From Williamsia sp. 1135 (GTDB taxonomy: Bacteria > Actinomycetota > Actinomycetes > Mycobacteriales > Mycobacteriaceae), in NCBI RefSeq assembly GCF_002095395.1, contig NZ_MJEI01000099.1, positions 62,001 through 126,000 on the forward strand: DNA of 64,000 nucleotides. The letters are read 5' to 3'. Under the pieces are notes generated by a model. It ran no database searches. It saw only the letters and a list, made by a program, of their open reading frames with translations, and had not been told where the DNA came from. How positions within the stretch are numbered: position 1 is the first letter of the stretch; each line of letters starts with the position of its first letter. Both the position numbers and the translations under genes were made by a program. This document shows, piece by piece, positions 7,755 to 62,143 of the stretch.

Positions 7755-8560
7755 GGTGTCGTCGTCCTGTCGAGGTAGGCCTTGCGTTGGCCGGGGTCGA
7801 AAGCGCCGGGTTCTCGTCCCCCGACCAGACGTTTGGCGCCGAGCAGGAGGTTCTCGGGAACTCCCTGCTCGACGAGACCCATGGGGGCCAGCCAGCGTGG
7901 CACCGTGACCTCTGGACGACCGTGGCGGGTGCTGGCGACGATGGCCCGTGCGACGTCCTCGGGTTCCAGGGTCGGCTGGAGTCTCAATGTGACACCGGAC
8001 GTCAGGTCGGTGCGGGTGGCGGCAGGCATCACCGTGGTCAGGGTGACCCCGGTCCCGATCAGCTCGGCGCGGATCGCTCGTGACAACGCAACGACCCCGA
8101 ACTTGGAGGCGCAGTAGGTGGCCATCCCCGGAGTCGACACCTTGCCGGCCATGGACGACACGTTGACGATATGCCCACGCCCACGAGAAATCATGTGAGG
8201 CAGCACAAGCCGGGTTCCGGTGACCACGGCACCAAGATTGATGGCCAGTTCACGGTGCAGCGCGTCCAGACCGTTCTCGACGAACCGCCCCATGAGCTGG
8301 ATCCCGGCGTTGTTCACCGATACGTCGATATCGCCGCCGTCGGCGTTGGCCACCACGAACTCTCGGAAGCTCGACGTGTCGGTCACATCGAGATGGTGCG
8401 AGCGTGCACCGATCTCACCGGCGGTCGCCGTGGCGACGTCGAGGTCGACGTCTCCGATGGTGACGATCGCGCCGCGTGCTGCCATCGCCGCGGCAGTTGC
8501 CTTACCGATGCCGCGTGCCCCGCCCGTCACACCCACTCGGGCACCGTCGAGGTCGATCAC
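7751..8560 (-). CDS. Short-chain dehydrogenase/reductase
   Basis: A 269-residue classical SDR with the NAD(P)-binding TGGARGIG near the N-terminus, the NNAG motif, the catalytic serine in VNVSSMAG, and YCASK. The C-terminal extension (APMGLVEQGVPENLLLG) is longer than in minimal SDRs. It is coupled by four-base overlaps both to the gene before it (8557) and to the P450 after it, so it probably oxidises or reduces the P450 substrate or product. Confidence 0.92.
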   Translation of the reverse strand: MIDLDGARVGVTGGARGIGKATAAAMAARGAIVTIGDVDLDVATATAGEIGARSHHLDVTDTSSFREFVVANADGGDIDVSVNNAGIQLMGRFVENGLDALHRELAINLGAVVTGTRLVLPHMISRGRGHIVNVSSMAGKVSTPGMATYCASKFGVVALSRAIRAELIGTGVTLTTVMPAATRTDLTSGVTLRLQPTLEPEDVARAIVASTRHGRPEVTVPRWLAPMGLVEQGVPENLLLGAKRLVGGREPGAFDPGQRKAYLDRTTTP

Positions 8561-9243
8561 AGCGGGCTACCGATGGGCTGGAGCAAGGCAAAGTGCGCGA
8601 TGAGGCGAACCTCTCCTGACCGCATGGTGAGTAGCGCTCGGCCGAGGTAGACCCCGGGCACGATCTCGACGATCTCGTCGCGGGTTCGCTTGATGGGAAA
8701 GGTTCGAACACTGGGATTCTTGTATGCGGGAACCCCGTAGTCGAGCGCGCGGACCATCACCCTGGGCTCGATGCGGCCCTCCTCGATCGAATGGTCGAAG
8801 TCGAAACCTTCCACTTCGCCGTCGCCCCGACGCAATCCCCGGTACCCGACAGCGACGATCGGCATCGCCAGGCGAGCGATGGACGCGAGACGGTTGAAGC
8901 CTGTACCGGCCCGGAGATCGAATGTCTTCCCTTGCCAGGTCGGATTGATGCGCATCAGCGGATTGGCCAGGTATGCCTCCGGGATCCCGAAGAGGTTCCC
9001 GACGATGAGGCCCTCGAGTTTGCCGTCGGGACCGTCTGGTGCCGTGCCTTCGCCGAAGAGGATCCTCAACGCAGGCAGATCGTTTCGATCACCGAGTTCC
9101 TTGATGTACTGCCAGGTCGCGGCCCGTGCGACTGTGGGGCGGGTCTGAGCCAACCCGCGCAGTTCGACGAGCATCGCGGTGACTGCCGAAGCTTCTCGCT
9201 CGGCCGCTATAGGTGAGTCGACCTGCTGCGTTGGTGCAGACAT
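8557..9243 (-). CDS. Conserved protein of unknown function, first gene of the P450 operon
   Basis: A 228-residue protein with no signal peptide or membrane segment. The start is the ATG at 9243, preceded by GGAGG; open frame extends upstream but runs into the operator palindrome. The middle (GKLEGLIVGN, PTWQGKTFDLRAGTG) alternates Gly and aromatic residues in the manner of lipid-binding calycin/GXWXG-type proteins, but this is a weak resemblance. It heads the operon with the SDR and P450 and is divergent from a TetR regulator. No function is assigned. Confidence 0.7.
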   Translation of the reverse strand: MSAPTQQVDSPIAAEREASAVTAMLVELRGLAQTRPTVARAATWQYIKELGDRNDLPALRILFGEGTAPDGPDGKLEGLIVGNLFGIPEAYLANPLMRINPTWQGKTFDLRAGTGFNRLASIARLAMPIVAVGYRGLRRGDGEVEGFDFDHSIEEGRIEPRVMVRALDYGVPAYKNPSVRTFPIKRTRDEIVEIVPGVYLGRALLTMRSGEVRLIAHFALLQPIGSPL

Positions 9244-56095: not shown

Positions 56096-56177
56096 CGGGT
56101 CTCCCGTCATCAGGTGCGAGGCAAGATTACCGCTCTGGCGCGAGGGAGTGGGCAATTCGCGCGCGGCGGCCGTTATC

Positions 56178-56207
56178 TTTTCGTGACTTTTCGTGACCTT
56201 TTCGTGA
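56178..56207 (+). promoter_or_regulatory. Three phased copies of TTTTCGTGA upstream of the MAA operon
   Basis: TTTTCGTGA occurs at 56178-56186, 56188-56196 and 56199-56207, with start-to-start distances of 10 and 11 bases, one DNA turn each. The block lies about 95 bases before the first gene of the MAA operon. Such phasing fits binding of several protein copies on one DNA face, for example an activator. No regulator gene is adjacent. Confidence 0.55.
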
Positions 56208-56300
56208 TGTTCGGTGCGTCCTTGCCGACACCTGGTCTGTTCACACTCGAAGAGGTCGAGCAATGGCATTGGACATCAACGGATTCCAGGAAGGAACACG

Positions 56301-56969
56301 ATGGCTGCCATCTTGTTTGGATCAATCAGTACCCTTGCGGATACCTCCGAAATTCAGCGCCGTGCGTTCAACGAAGCGTTCGAAGCCCACGGATTGGACT
56401 GGAAGTGGGGTCGAGACGACTACATCTCCATGTTGGCGAGTAACGGTGGTGCGCAACGTATTGCCGACTATGCCGAGTCTCGTGGCGAGACCGTTGATGC
56501 GGCTGCGGTTCATGCAACCAAATCGTCGATCTTTCAGGAACTGGTGGCGATGCTGGGCATCGAGCCCCGTGCCGGCGTCTTGGACGCGGTTGCGGCTGCG
56601 AAGACCCACAACGTCAAACTCGGCCTGGTCACGACGACGTCACCCGAGAACGTCACCGCGCTGCTCGCCGGACTCCCGGACGTATCTCGCGAAACCTTCG
56701 ATGTGGTGGTGGATTCGGCGACGGTGGACACGGGGAAGCCCGACCCGGCGTCGTACAACTACGCACTGGATCAACTCGGGGAAGACGCCGGCTCGTGCGT
56801 CGCGATCGAGGACAACGTCGGCGGAGTGCACGCGGCCACAGCCGCCTCCGTGATCTGCGTGGCATTCCCGAATCAGAACACCGTGAGTGGCGACTTCTCT
56901 GAAGCCGTCGAGGTTGTCGGTCAGCTCGATGCAGATCGTCTGCGCGCCTTGACCGACACCGATCGCTAG
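56301..56969 (+). CDS. HAD-fold protein lacking the catalytic DxD, first gene of the MAA operon
   Basis: A 222-residue CbbY/GPH-like (subfamily IA) protein. The family start would read FDVDGTLADTSE; here residues 6-17 are [12 protein letters not shown], so both catalytic aspartates (nucleophile and acid/base) are replaced by G7 and I9. The other motifs remain: T111-T113 in LVTTTS, K146 in GKPDP, and E170-D171 in [10 protein letters not shown]. The cap ([17 protein letters not shown]) is intact. The fold is therefore kept but phosphatase chemistry by the usual route is not possible; a binding, chaperone or sensing role is likelier. AGGAAGGA precedes the ATG, and mysA starts 28 bases after its stop. 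Confidence 0.85.
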
Positions 56970-56997
56970 CGCTCACCGGCAGTCAGAGAGGATTCAG

Positions 56998-58224
56998 ATG
57001 AGCGACATCCAAGCCAGCGTCACCGCCACCGAACGCGCATTCCACGTCGAAGGCTACGAGAAGATCGAGTACGACCTGTTGTACGTCGACGGCGTCTTTT
57101 CCATCGACCAGCCACACCTGGCCGATACCTATCGCGGCTATGGCCGCTGCCTGATGGTGATCGACGAAAGTGTGTACGCGCTTTACGGAACGCAGATCCA
57201 TCGGTACTTCGACCACCACGATCTGCAGCTCACGGTTGTTCCCGTCGGTATTGCCGAGACCGCGAAATCGCTCCGCACCTACGAAGACATCGTCGGCAAG
57301 TTCGACGAGTTCGGTCTTGTCCGGACCGAACCGGTCCTGGTGGTGGGCGGCGGCCTCACAACCGACGTGGCCGGTTTCGCGTGTGCCAGTTATCGACGCA
57401 ATACACCGTACATCCGCATACCGACCACCTTGATCGGACTGATCGATGCCAGCGTGTCGATCAAGGTGGCGGTCAATCACGGCAAGCACAAGAACCGGCT
57501 GGGCGCTTACCATGCCTCCCAGAAAGTGTTGCTGGACTTCGCTTTTCTCCGAACCCTGCCTGCCGACCAGGTGCGTAACGGTATGGCCGAGCTCATCAAG
57601 ATCGCGACGGTCGGTAACTCGGCCATTTTCGACATGCTCGACGAGTACGGCCCCGAGCTCCTGCGCACCCGATTCGGGCATCTGGACGGAACTGCAGAGC
57701 TACGCGCAGTGGCGGACAGCCTGACCTATCAGGCCATCGAGACCATGCTCGAACTCGAGGCGCCGAATCTTCATGAGCTGATGCTCGACCGGGTCATCGC
57801 GTTCGGGCACACGTGGAGTCCCACACTCGAACTGTCGCCTCCGGAACCGTTCTTCCACGGTCATGCGATCAATATCGACATGGCACTGTCGACCACGCTC
57901 GCCGAGAAGCGGGGACTCATCTCGGTCGATGACCGCGACCGGATCCTCGGGGTGATGAACCGCCTGGGCCTCGCCCTCGACAGCGACCATCTCACCCCCG
58001 AATTGCTGGCTGAGGCAACGCAGTCCATCCTCAGGACGCGAGATGGACTACTGCGGGCGGCGGTACCGAATCCGATCGGGCAATGCCAGTTCCTCAACGA
58101 CGTCACCGTCGACGAACTCGCCGACACGCTCACCGTGCACAAGAAGATCTGTCTCGACTTCGAGCGCGAGGGTGCAGGGATCGACATGTTCACATCTGCG
58201 CCGATGGCCTCCGTCGATGGCTGA
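56998..58224 (+). CDS. mysA: Demethyl-4-deoxygadusol synthase (sedoheptulose-7-phosphate cyclase)
   Basis: A 408-residue sugar-phosphate cyclase that converts sedoheptulose 7-phosphate, using NAD+ and a divalent metal, to demethyl-4-deoxygadusol, the MAA core. It shows NAD-binding [20 protein letters not shown] (residues 111-130), [21 protein letters not shown] (140-160), and metal ligands E198 ([10 protein letters not shown]), H271 ([11 protein letters not shown]) and H287 (FFHGHAIN). The N-terminus ([20 protein letters not shown]) closely follows my memory of the Anabaena enzyme Ava_3858 and differs from valiolone synthases. The neighbouring mysB, mysC and mysD make the assignment firm. Confidence 0.95.
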
Positions 58225-59050
58225 GATGGTGTCGATCCCGTCGCACCCGGTCACGCCGTCGACAATCCTTGCGGTGGAGCTCGCCGAACTCGTGGAGTTG
58301 GTCGATGCGGCGCCCGAGCCGGCGCCGGGGCTCAAGGACCGGTTGCGACGGGCGCGCGACTTGGCGCGCGGTCTCGACCCCTACCTGGAGGAGTGCACGA
58401 CCCCGGAGTCACCCGCGCTGGCCGCTCTGGCGGCGCGTACTCGGGCGGAGCGCTGGGGAGAGCGGTCGCTGGTCTCCGGATCGGGGCCGTTGGAACAGGA
58501 GATGCTGTCGGGACATGTGGAGGGCCAGACACTGAAGTTCCTGGTCCACATGACCCGCGCCCGCCGGGTCCTCGACATCGGGATGTTCACCGGATACTCG
58601 GCGCTCGCCATGGCCGAGGCGCTCCCCGAGGGCGGCGAGGTGGTGGCCTGTGAGGTCGATCCATACGTCGCCGACGTCGCCCGCCAGTGTTTCGCCGAAT
58701 CACCTGCAGGGAGCCGGATTCGGGTGGAAGTCGGTCCAGCGCTGAACACCGTTCTCCGGCTCGACGGGCCGTTCGACCTGGTGTTCATCGACGCAGACAA
58801 GACCGGGTACCTCGACTACTTCCACTACCTCATCGGCAGTGAGCTCCTCGCGCCGCACGGAGTGATCGCCGTCGACAACACACTCTTGCAAGGGGAGCCC
58901 TACGCGAACAATGGTTCCCGTTCCACCAACGGTCAGGCGATTGCCGACTTCAACCGGGTCGTCGCCAACGATGCCAGGGTGGAGCAGGTGCTGCTGCCGT
59001 TGCGCGACGGGGTAACCCTCATCCGGCGAACGGGTGCGGACGGGCCATGA
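58217..59050 (+). CDS. mysB: O-methyltransferase, 4-deoxygadusol synthase
   Basis: A 277-residue SAM-dependent O-methyltransferase of the catechol-OMT-like family. SAM motif I is [20 protein letters not shown], then [17 protein letters not shown] and the metal-binding [14 protein letters not shown] with [10 protein letters not shown]. It methylates demethyl-4-deoxygadusol to 4-deoxygadusol. The ATG at 58217 overlaps the mysA stop by 8 bases (the ATG at 58226 is an alternative), so translation is coupled. Its stop overlaps mysC. Confidence 0.93.
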
Positions 59051-60348
59051 CGGCAGCGTCGTCGGTCAGGACAATCGGTGCACTGGCGGGACTCCTCGCG
59101 ACGTTTCCGGTCGATCTCGCGGTCACTGTGATCGCCGTGCTCCGGCGCGTGCCACCGCCGGTGGTGGACGAAACGAGCAGGCGCCGCACGGTTCTCATCA
59201 CGGGTGGCAAGATGACGAAGTCGTTGTCGCTCGCCCGCGCCTTCCACCTGGCCGGGCACCGGGTCATCCTGGCCGAATCAGCGAAGTACCGGTTCACCGG
59301 CCATCGTTTCTCCAAGGCCGTCGACACGTTCCACTGCCTCCCGGAACCGACGTCACCGCACTACGCCGATGCATTGCTCGACGTGGTCAAGCGGGAAGAG
59401 GTCGATGTCTTCGTGCCGGTCTCGAGCCCGGCGTCCAGTGTCTACGAGGCGGATGCGGGCGAGATCCTCGGAGACTTCTGCGACGTCGTCCACGGGAATC
59501 TGCGTACGGTGCGGATGGTCGATGACAAAGACCAATTCTCGGAGTTCGCGCGGTCGGTCGGCGTCCGGGTTCCGGATTCGCGGCGCATCACCGACCCGGT
59601 CCAGATCTCGGAGTTCGATTTCCCGCCCGGCCGCGAGTACATCCTGAAGCGTATCGCCTACAACCCCGTCGGGCGCATGGACCTCACGAAGCTCTCACGC
59701 GAGACGCCCGAGCGAAATCTGCAGTTCGCTGCGAGCTTGTCGATCTCCGAGGATGATCCGTGGATCTTGCAGGAATACATTGCAGGCCAGGAGTATTGCA
59801 CGCACGGTACCGCGCGTGCAGGGAATCTACAGGTGTACGCGTGCTGTGAGTCGTCGGCCTTTCAGGTCAACTACGAGATGGTGGACAAGCCGGAAATCCT
59901 CTCGTGGGTGCAGACGTTCGTGGGTAGGCTCGGTGTGAGCGGCCAGTATTCGTTCGACTTCATCGAGGGTGCGGACGGGCATGCCTACGCAATCGAGTGC
60001 AATCCCCGGACTCATTCGGCCATCACCATGTTCGAAGGCCACCCCCAGCTGGCCTCCGCCTATCTCGACGACCGTCACCCGATGATCGTTCCGGACGCGG
60101 ATTCACTGCCGACGTACTGGATCTACCATGAGCTGTGGCGGTTGCTGACCGAACCGGGTCGCCGCCATCGCCTGCGGGTCATCGGACGAGGACGCGACGC
60201 CATCTTCGCAGCATGGGATCCGCTCCCATATCTACTCGTTCATCATCTTCAGATCCCGTCTCTGCTCGTGAAGAGTCTGATCACCGGAAAAGTCTGGACG
60301 CGTATCGATTTCAACATTGGCAAGCTTGTCGAGCTGGGGGGCGACTGA
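59047..60348 (+). CDS. mysC: ATP-grasp ligase forming mycosporine-glycine
   Basis: A 433-residue ATP-grasp enzyme that activates 4-deoxygadusol with ATP and couples glycine. A hydrophobic segment is at residues 10-33, then TVLITGGKMTKSLSLARAFH, the ATP-grasp core (REYILKRIAYNPVGRMDLTK; WILQEYIAGQEYCTHG) and the metal-binding AYAIECNPRTHSAITMF. This layout and length match cyanobacterial MysC. The start shares ATGA with the mysB stop. Confidence 0.94.
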   Translation: MTAASSVRTIGALAGLLATFPVDLAVTVIAVLRRVPPPVVDETSRRRTVLITGGKMTKSLSLARAFHLAGHRVILAESAKYRFTGHRFSKAVDTFHCLPEPTSPHYADALLDVVKREEVDVFVPVSSPASSVYEADAGEILGDFCDVVHGNLRTVRMVDDKDQFSEFARSVGVRVPDSRRITDPVQISEFDFPPGREYILKRIAYNPVGRMDLTKLSRETPERNLQFAASLSISEDDPWILQEYIAGQEYCTHGTARAGNLQVYACCESSAFQVNYEMVDKPEILSWVQTFVGRLGVSGQYSFDFIEGADGHAYAIECNPRTHSAITMFEGHPQLASAYLDDRHPMIVPDADSLPTYWIYHELWRLLTEPGRRHRLRVIGRGRDAIFAAWDPLPYLLVHHLQIPSLLVKSLITGKVWTRIDFNIGKLVELGGD

Positions 60349-61382
60349 TGCGACCGGTGAAAGTTCTCGCCCTGGCGGGCTCGCCCGTCGACTACTTCCG
60401 CGCCGACCTGTCCCGGGTGTACTCGACGGGCTTCGTAGATGCGTTCAGGGGTCTGGACGGCTACCGCATCGAGGTGGCCTACGTCTCGCCTGATGGCCGC
60501 TGGCGGTTCATGAGCGAGCTGAACGCGGACGAGATCGCTGCAGCGCGGGCGGTCTCCCTCGCGGACGCCGTCGGCTACATCCAGGCGCGACGCTACGACG
60601 TGATCGTTCCTGAGATGTTCTGTCTCCCGGGTATGACGGCGTACCGGTCTCTGTTCGACGTGATCGGCGTCCCGTACCTGGGTAACCGTGCCGATGTGAT
60701 GGCACTGACGGCCGACAAGCATTTGACGCGCGTTGTCGTCGCCGGGGCGGGAGTCGCGGTGCCCGCAGGTGAGGTGCTCAGGGCGGGTGAGAAGTACACC
60801 GGAGAATTGCCCGTTGTCGTCAAACCTGCGGACTCCGACAACTCCATGGGTGTGACCTTGGTACGAGAGAACTCGGACATGAACCTCGCAGTTGACGATG
60901 CGCTGCTGTACTCGGATTCGCTACTCGTCGAGACCTACGTACCACTGGGCCGAGAGGTGCGGTGCGGCATAATCGTTCGCGATGGCGAGTTGGTGTGCCT
61001 GCCCCTCGAAGAGTACGCAGTCGACGAGCAGGATCACCCCATCCGCGCTCGCGCCGACAAGCTGGACCGGACCTCCGACGGTCAGCTGTACCTGGTGGCG
61101 AAAGAGTCCACCAAGGCGTGGATGGTCGACGTGGACGACCCGGTGACCGAGGCGGTGTGGGCCGCTGCCCGACGCGCTCACGTCGCTCTCGGTTGCCGGC
61201 ACTACAGTCTGTTCGACTTCCGGATCGATCCGGACGGCGTGCCCTGGTTTCTCGAGGCCGGACTGTACTGCTCGTACTCACCGAGCAGCGTGATCGCAGT
61301 GATGGCTTCCGCCGCCGGTATCACCGTCGATGAGTTGTTCGCCATCGGCCTGCGAGAGATCGCGCGAGAGAAGGCTCGCTGA
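60348..61382 (+). CDS. mysD: D-Ala-D-Ala-ligase-type enzyme attaching the second amino acid
   Basis: A 344-residue ATP-grasp ligase of the D-Ala-D-Ala ligase superfamily: PVVVKPADSDNSMGVTLV, LLVETYVPLGREVRCGI and DFRIDPDGVPWFLEAGLYCS. MysD-type enzymes add a second amino acid (often serine, threonine or alanine) to mycosporine-glycine, giving a shinorine- or porphyra-334-like MAA. The amino acid cannot be predicted. The ATG at 60348 overlaps the mysC stop by one base; an open frame begins upstream but lies inside mysC. Confidence 0.92.
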   Translation: MRPVKVLALAGSPVDYFRADLSRVYSTGFVDAFRGLDGYRIEVAYVSPDGRWRFMSELNADEIAAARAVSLADAVGYIQARRYDVIVPEMFCLPGMTAYRSLFDVIGVPYLGNRADVMALTADKHLTRVVVAGAGVAVPAGEVLRAGEKYTGELPVVVKPADSDNSMGVTLVRENSDMNLAVDDALLYSDSLLVETYVPLGREVRCGIIVRDGELVCLPLEEYAVDEQDHPIRARADKLDRTSDGQLYLVAKESTKAWMVDVDDPVTEAVWAAARRAHVALGCRHYSLFDFRIDPDGVPWFLEAGLYCSYSPSSVIAVMASAAGITVDELFAIGLREIAREKAR

Positions 61383-62143
61383 TGCAGTATCAGGTCGTCG
61401 ATCCGATCGGTGCTCGCGTCACCGATCTGTCCTTGGACGAGGTGGACGGCGGCGACATGGCCCGGCTCGAGAAGCTGCTGGCGGAGGCCGGTGTCGTGGT
61501 CATTCCAGACCAGAACGTAGACGACAGGGCATTTCTCGCGTTCCTGGAGCGGTTCGGTGAGCTGATGTTCACCAAGGGCGAGATGCCGCTCGCGGGCTAC
61601 CCTGACCTCAACGTCATCAGTAATGTCGGCCGGACGACACCGCCGAGGTCCACCTTTCACGTCGACACGACGTATGTGTCGCAGCCGCCCCGGTACACCG
61701 CGTTGCGTGCGGTGCACGTGCCCCAAGAGGGTGGTCACACCCAGTTCAGCAATCAGTACGCGGCGTACGACACGCTCCCTGATGAGATTCGGGAGGACCT
61801 GGCCGGCCGCCTCGTGACCCATGTTGTCACCGGGGTGGATCCGGGCGATGACGCGGAAACGTCCGCTGTCCATCCGATCTTCCTGGCCCACCCGTTGTCG
61901 GGGAGGACCGCGCTCTATTTGTCGGCAGCGGCGAGGTGTGCGGCGATCAGCGGCAAGACGTCGGAAGAGACAGCGGAGGTCATCGCCTACCTCATCACCC
62001 ACTCGACCCGAGAGGACAACGTCCTTCGGCACGCTTGGTCCGCCGGTGACGTCGTGATGTGGGACAACCGGGTTGTCATGCACCGCGCCGACCACAGTGG
62101 TGTGGTCGGCGACCGCGTGATGCATCGGGGAATGGTCAGGTAG
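61382..62143 (+). CDS. TauD/TfdA-type Fe(II)/2-oxoglutarate dioxygenase, likely MAA tailoring enzyme
   Basis: A 253-residue non-heme iron dioxygenase. The iron triad is H93 and D95 (TFHVDTTYVSQPP) with H234 (WDNRVVMHRAD), and 2-oxoglutarate-binding arginines R245 and R249 (GDRVMHRGMVR) have the same spacing as in E. coli TauD. Its start overlaps mysD by one base (TGATG), so it is the last gene of the operon. The known cyanobacterial MAA oxygenase MysH belongs to the phytanoyl-CoA dioxygenase group, so this is a different branch. It could hydroxylate, demethylate or decarboxylate the MAA side chain. The reaction is inference. Confidence 0.88.
   Translation: MQYQVVDPIGARVTDLSLDEVDGGDMARLEKLLAEAGVVVIPDQNVDDRAFLAFLERFGELMFTKGEMPLAGYPDLNVISNVGRTTPPRSTFHVDTTYVSQPPRYTALRAVHVPQEGGHTQFSNQYAAYDTLPDEIREDLAGRLVTHVVTGVDPGDDAETSAVHPIFLAHPLSGRTALYLSAAARCAAISGKTSEETAEVIAYLITHSTREDNVLRHAWSAGDVVMWDNRVVMHRADHSGVVGDRVMHRGMVR

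Follow-up and report, generated by a model that had tools for sequence, protein, structure and literature searches.

A CbbY-type HAD protein lacking both motif I aspartates accompanies a predicted mycosporine-like amino acid operon in Williamsia sp. 1135

Mycosporine-like amino acid (MAA) clusters of cyanobacteria such as Anabaena and Nostoc carry their core genes in the order mysA-mysB-mysC, with or without mysD. According to a 2025 preprint (PMC11888242; this and the other articles cited are represented here by parts of their text), a HAD gene and a TauD/TfdA gene are conserved in MAA clusters of Actinomycetota, Pseudomonadota, and Bacillota and are absent from Cyanobacteriota, and the role of the HAD in these clusters is unvalidated. 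An MAA cluster has also been described in Nakamurella (PMC9789016), and the operon of Rhodococcus fascians D188, which includes HAD and TauD genes, reportedly yielded shinorine, palythine, and palythine-serine in Streptomyces coelicolor (Osborn and Mahmud 2018, a meeting abstract cited in PMC11888242). Here, we describe an operon predicted to make an MAA sunscreen compound in Williamsia sp. 1135, a Williamsia-type soil bacterium whose genome comprises 5.98 Mb in 107 contigs, with emphasis on its HAD gene. The operon lies in a stretch of 64,000 nucleotides (the window, to which positions refer unless a locus is named), where six plus-strand open reading frames (ORFs) run head to tail from 56301 to 62143 and encode HAD, MysA, MysB, MysC, MysD, and TauD. 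Because the same cluster type has already been described for many Actinomycetota (PMC11888242), the layout is not new: genes of the same HAD and TauD/TfdA families stand beside the same core genes, and the difference, as far as seen, is the species. This comparison takes gene content from the text of PMC11888242 and gene order from scanned loci, including those of R. fascians A44A and NBRC 12155 (L012 and L050). An earlier note on this DNA, which called MAA clusters best known in cyanobacteria and a few actinomycetes, therefore overstated their rarity. The new element is the absence of catalytic residues from the HAD, whose role that preprint leaves open. We put at about 0.8 the probability that the window holds a single MAA operon, with a shinorine-type product trimmed to palythine-type compounds, together with a noncatalytic CbbY-type HAD partner.

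The HAD gene (56301 to 56969, plus strand) encodes a protein with a PF00702 match, and its nearest solved structure is CbbY, a xylulose-1,5-bisphosphate phosphatase. The AlphaFold2 model (predicted local distance difference test [pLDDT] score, 95; predicted template-modeling [TM] score, 0.90) shares both fold and cap with Rhodobacter CbbY (4UAT, 4UAR, and 4UAU), with TM scores of 0.86 to 0.89 and 36 to 37% identity. Only CbbY, however, has the motif I aspartates. The FDVDGT of CbbY motif I, within the aligned stretch FDVDGTLAETEE, is FGSIST in the window protein (plus strand, 56316 to 56351), and in the alignment to 4UAR and 4UAT the CbbY residues D8 and D10 are replaced by Gly and Ile. Across 64 aligned sequences, comprising the window protein and 63 relatives, the nucleophile position is Gly in all, the acid/base position is Ile in 63 and Leu in 1, and a canonical D-x-D at motif I occurs in none. 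The key residues of the other motifs are kept in all 64 (motif II T111, motif III K146, and motif IV E170 and D171), and S8, S10, and D14 are likewise invariant. The commonest residue has a mean frequency of 0.95 in the motif I region and 0.92 in motif IV, against 0.79 to 0.85 in four other chosen regions and 0.65 at the 152 positions outside these six regions. Because the motif I region is so highly conserved, its altered form looks selected rather than decaying.

With the Asp nucleophile and the acid/base Asp gone, the protein should not hydrolyze phosphate esters by the HAD mechanism, and motif I rules out a plain phosphatase. The earlier description of a HAD-like gene holds for family and fold but not for a normal HAD hydrolase, since the catalytic aspartates are missing. 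It is unlikely that the protein is still catalytic by another mechanism, in which S8, S10, D14, or T111 would replace the aspartate and the enzyme would clear either a sugar phosphate or a MysA side product that is inhibitory. The invariance of these four residues and of K146, the position of motifs I and IV as the most conserved regions measured, and the metabolite-repair precedent of CbbY itself, which clears a Rubisco inhibitor (PMC10212915), would fit such an activity, but no member read retains either of the motif I acids, and D14 is not a moved nucleophile because canonical CbbY proteins also carry an acidic residue there. In the open-licence PMC literature, no account of MAA clusters with a catalytically dead HAD was found, and in the text of PMC11888242 the strings "aspartate" and "nucleophil" do not occur, with no discussion of motif I aspartate loss.

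In Actinomycetota, the HAD co-occurs with MAA genes. Of 396 Actinomycetota genomes searched, eight have a HAD-profile match at an E value of ≤1e-40, seven of them below 1e-87. The same seven genomes, the host among them, hold both the HAD and mysC (E value of ≤1e-60), a count in which a miss is possible as at most seven HAD and four mysC candidates were scored per genome; the eighth match, which carries FDVDGTL, is a CbbY-like protein of the canonical type. Of 301 genomes of the family, 45 have the HAD at E values below 1e-99, followed by a gap to 7e-41 and weaker matches, with 60 of 301 at ≤1e-20; within this list, five of the nine genomes of the window's genus, host included, have the HAD. 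A locus scan with peptides of the window MysA gave 77 loci, among which near kin are overrepresented because of the origin of these peptides; among named relatives, Williamsia sp. 1138 and Williamsia soli are closest, with MysA 97% identical. In all 63 scanned loci with both genes, the HAD stands directly before mysA, at a gap of −4 to 256 bases, and in eight of them the two genes overlap by 4 bases. The check for the same six-gene order in related genomes, proposed in the earlier note, found HAD-A-B-C-D-TauD on one strand in 52 of the 77 loci (including L040, whose TauD gene is cut by a contig end, and L052, whose TauD match is weak and short), and the order is thus more than chance. The remaining loci have the order A-B-C (nine, all cyanobacterial), HAD-A-C-D-TauD (three), HAD-A-B-TauD-C-D (three), A-B-C-D (three, from two cyanobacteria and one Kineosporia), HAD-A-B-C-D with an inverted TauD gene (two), or one of five single patterns, four of which are cut by contig ends.

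The HAD could instead be an accessory of the TauD-type oxygenase, and hence of the palythine step rather than of the cyclase, although we regard this as improbable. The HAD is reported to be highly colocalized with TauD (PMC11888242), six of the seven HAD-positive genomes among the 396 have an MAA-type TauD (E values below 1e-104), and Kineosporia babensis (L060) lacks both. However, a TauD search at an E value of ≤1e-15 found nothing in the genome of Aeromicrobium Root472D3 (L028), which does carry the HAD, and another genome (G214) has the HAD with only a distant TauD (3.9e-29). In addition, L051, L054, L066, L068, L073, and L094 have the TauD gene at another place or in inverted orientation, and the HAD still stands before mysA. 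The two HAD-positive genomes without an MAA-type TauD weaken the case for an obligate TauD accessory.

The leading guess for the HAD is a partner of the cyclase that binds sugar phosphates, in view of the conserved pocket, the association with mysA, and the CbbY ancestry. Judged from sequence and models, it is most likely a conserved pseudo-phosphatase that serves the MAA pathway, probably by binding a sugar phosphate as a partner of MysA. In a tree of 51 proteins, 35 MAA HADs form one group (support of 100/96), and these together with a protein of a Roseobacter plasmid (L080, 7989 to 8660; motif FGSIGTIVET) are split from 14 canonical CbbY proteins (100/99), with a bootstrap that had not fully settled. 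Among 146 cyanobacterial genomes, 36 have a HAD match at an E value of ≤1e-15, and the HAD loci read in 20 genomes comprise 19 with the canonical D-x-D and one without the motif I aspartates (VGSIGTFVET in L165; L195, 6855 to 7556). This one is not beside MAA genes, and none occurs within the 14.5 kb read around it. In the cyanobacterium that carries it (G748), an MAA cluster is located 0.33 Mb from this HAD gene, with genes for a divergent cyclase, MysB, a MysD-like protein, and MysC and none for TauD. The coincidence lends weak support, with a chance of about 1 in 8, because mysC is present in 18 of the 146 genomes. The motif I loss appears to predate linkage to the actinobacterial operon. 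On the more tentative pseudoenzyme reading given below, the unlinked pairing in G748 may represent an older form of the pairing between HAD and cyclase.

Several observations weigh against so close a tie between the HAD and the cyclase. Of four CbbY residues that we take to be substrate contacts (E17, H20, Y42, and R54), Y42 and R54 are kept by position as Y41 and R53, and E17 and H20 are S16 and Q19, so that the ligand may differ from that of CbbY. In two loci found outside the MysA scan (L096 and L097), the HAD lies between the cyclase gene and mysB, and the Kineosporia locus has mysA to mysD without the HAD. Unlike in the window operon, neither HAD nor TauD adjoins mysA-B-C in the 11 cyanobacterial loci that have this core. 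Although 18 cyanobacterial genomes have mysC, a single motif I-less HAD turned up in cyanobacteria; as far as the loci read go, the HAD is missing from most cyanobacterial genomes with MAA genes. No MAA genes surround the Roseobacter HAD, and that plasmid has no MysA match, its chromosome not having been searched. Furthermore, the first three steps can run in another host in the absence of the HAD, since MysA, MysB, and MysC of R. fascians D188 produced mycosporine-glycine in Streptomyces albidoflavus without the HAD gene (2024, PMC11284840).

The mysA gene (56998 to 58224, plus strand; PF01761 and PF24621) encodes a predicted demethyl-4-deoxygadusol synthase (DDGS). Among solved structures, it matches 5TPR with 557 bits and 4P53 with 267 bits; we take the former, titled 3-dehydroquinate synthase in the search, to be Ava_3858, the DDGS of Anabaena, and the latter to be the valiolone synthase (EEVS) ValA. 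The fingerprint positions, which we assume to be those of Kean 2014, are E254/A268/T347 in 5TPR and L267/D281/H360 in EEVS. The window MysA has E, A, and T, and 4P53 has L, D, and H; in 75 full-length sequences of the 77 relatives, 2 short ones being omitted, the three letters occur in 75, 75, and 74 sequences, respectively. In a tree of 33 cyclases, 24 DDGS sequences, including the window MysA and 5TPR, form one group (100/99), and five EEVS-type sequences, which we grouped as such (4P53 plus four plasmid genes whose annotation is sedoheptulose 7-phosphate cyclase), fall outside it, with L/D/H in four and L/D/R in one. The order among the outside sequences is unsure because of several long branches. 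Two active-site fingerprint sites are reported in an eLife paper to separate EEVS from DDGS (PMC4426668). It is highly improbable that valiolone is the cyclase product (EEVS/EVS type) and that the operon yields a cyclitol instead of an MAA: the two enzymes share one superfamily and 4P53 is matched with 267 bits, but the 5TPR score is higher, the fingerprint and the clade are those of DDGS, and mysB, mysC, and mysD follow downstream. On tree and fingerprint, we thus reject an EEVS/EVS identity, and the clade check called for in the earlier note upholds its choice of DDGS over valiolone synthase. In addition, MysA is 61 to 66% identical to its counterparts in 12 cyanobacterial loci, whose clusters have the same mysA-B-C(-D) order. 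The host genome has one further PF01761 gene, read as 3-dehydroquinate synthase. A divergent sugar-phosphate cyclase, 37 to 38% identical to MysA, with the fingerprint E/A/K and a longer N terminus, occurs in the MAA clusters L096, L097, and L196/L230 (the last from G748) and forms its own clade (100/99) next to DDGS.

The remaining genes complete the operon, and together with the DDGS clade of MysA the gene order and neighbors support the MAA reading of the earlier note. The six-gene order given there, with HAD before and TauD after the mys genes and overlaps of 8 (mysA/mysB), 4 (mysB/mysC), and 1 (mysC/mysD) bases, is confirmed by the ORFs and sequence; mysD and the TauD gene also overlap by 1 base. 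An O-methyltransferase, MysC, and a D-Ala-D-Ala-ligase-like MysD thus adjoin the cyclase. The orthologue of mysB (58217 to 59050, plus strand; PF01596) adjoins mysA in both cyanobacterial and actinobacterial clusters. Three mycobacterial clusters with the order HAD-A-C-D-TauD (L029, L032, and L037) lack mysB, and the best methyltransferase matches in their genomes are distant (1e-18, 2e-18, and 4e-12, versus 1e-103 in the control genome of L010); their product may lack the O-methyl group. The mysC gene (59047 to 60348, plus strand) encodes an ATP-grasp-type ligase that scores 403.5 bits against NCBIfam PRK06849, just below the cutoff of 406, and has no match in Pfam. The assignment therefore rests on the likeness to the positional counterpart in 11 cyanobacterial loci, to which it is 49 to 53% identical. 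MysD (60348 to 61382, plus strand; PF07478) shares 50% and 47% identity with the product encoded at the mysD position of the cyanobacterial loci L058 and L059, respectively. The GC content of the operon (61 to 65%) is close to that of the flanks (63 to 67%), and composition gives no sign of a recent foreign island. Plasmid carriage was also considered, but when the plasmid collection was searched with MysC at an E value of ≤1e-30, the single record found was a Nostoc plasmid, with none from actinobacteria. The cluster flanks of L006 and nine further loci contain a recurring diiron (AurF-like) oxygenase-like protein and a ferredoxin-type protein, both identified by eye.

The last gene (61382 to 62143, plus strand; PF02668) encodes a TauD/TfdA-type Fe(II)/2-oxoglutarate dioxygenase that is probably palythine forming. 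Its model (pLDDT, 93) matches the fold of AAD-1, PlaO1, RdpA, and TauD structures. H93, D95, H234, and R245, which presumably form the HxD...H iron site and the 2-oxoglutarate-binding Arg as in TauD, are invariant in 28 of 28 sequences, and on this ground both sites look intact. Only PF02668 was matched at an E value of ≤0.001, and the protein does not belong to the phytanoyl-CoA dioxygenase family of MysH, the cyanobacterial enzyme, which is of a different oxygenase family (PMC10510106). MysI of Nostoc sp. UHCC 0926 is also a TauD/TfdA-family oxygenase proposed for a palythine step; unlike the window TauD, it sits with mysF and mysE (PMC10510106). In 17 TauD-like loci (14 of them cyanobacterial, from 8 of the 13 genomes searched, each less than 4 kb), no adenylation-domain core motif was found nearby, with only a short GGDS-type match in L151. 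The TauD of L052 is short (160 amino acids read, weak match), and that of L068 is in two pieces in different frames.

From these gene identities, we infer the following chemistry. MysA would convert sedoheptulose 7-phosphate to demethyl-4-deoxygadusol, which MysB would methylate. By analogy, MysC would add glycine to give mycosporine-glycine, and MysD would add a second amino acid to give a shinorine-type MAA. The TauD-type oxygenase would then trim the glycine arm; the apparently intact TauD sites and the products reported for R. fascians point to palythine-type end products. The HAD would bind a sugar phosphate, either the MysA substrate or one related to that of CbbY, and act as a noncatalytic partner or sensor for the cyclase. 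More tentatively, it may be a true pseudoenzyme, descended from an ancient CbbY-type sugar-phosphate phosphatase that lost its nucleophile once and retained the ligand pocket. Recruited specifically to the cyclase as its receptor or allosteric partner, such a protein would couple MAA production to the sedoheptulose/pentose-phosphate pool.

Upstream of the operon, a candidate regulator box of four GTKAY direct repeats (56172 to 56208, plus strand) has repeat starts 11, 10, and 11 bp apart and is matched once in the window and in none of 100 shuffles. A repeat spacing of 10 to 11 bp recalls the sites of OmpR-family response regulators. A looser form of the box precedes the HAD in 12 of the 63 HAD loci, all of them among the 27 that lack a TetR gene, and does not recur at any other place in the 63 loci, both strands considered. 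A divergent TetR-family regulator gene adjoins the HAD in 35 of the 63 loci (L010, 8528 to 9094, and the same place in 34 others; PF00440 in one tested), and one more lies elsewhere in L051. The TetR gene is absent from the window and from 27 of the 63 loci, 15 of which also lack the GTKAY box. Among these 15 is the MAA cluster of Nocardioides mangrovicus (L068), beside which a divergent MerR-DICT regulator is encoded (8381 to 9202). For the divergent TetR arrangement, the sequence TACTGTAC occurs in 15 of 27 intergenic stretches examined.

These mycolate actinobacteria form a set of tractable candidates for MAA production, and upstream control is of at least three types among them. Annotation of the HAD gene as a hydrolase should be avoided in view of the missing motif I aspartates. 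Phosphatase assays of the HAD are likely to fail, and the question becomes whether it binds sugar phosphates or MysA. If the HAD is a true pseudoenzyme, the Roseobacter branch of the family would serve another partner.

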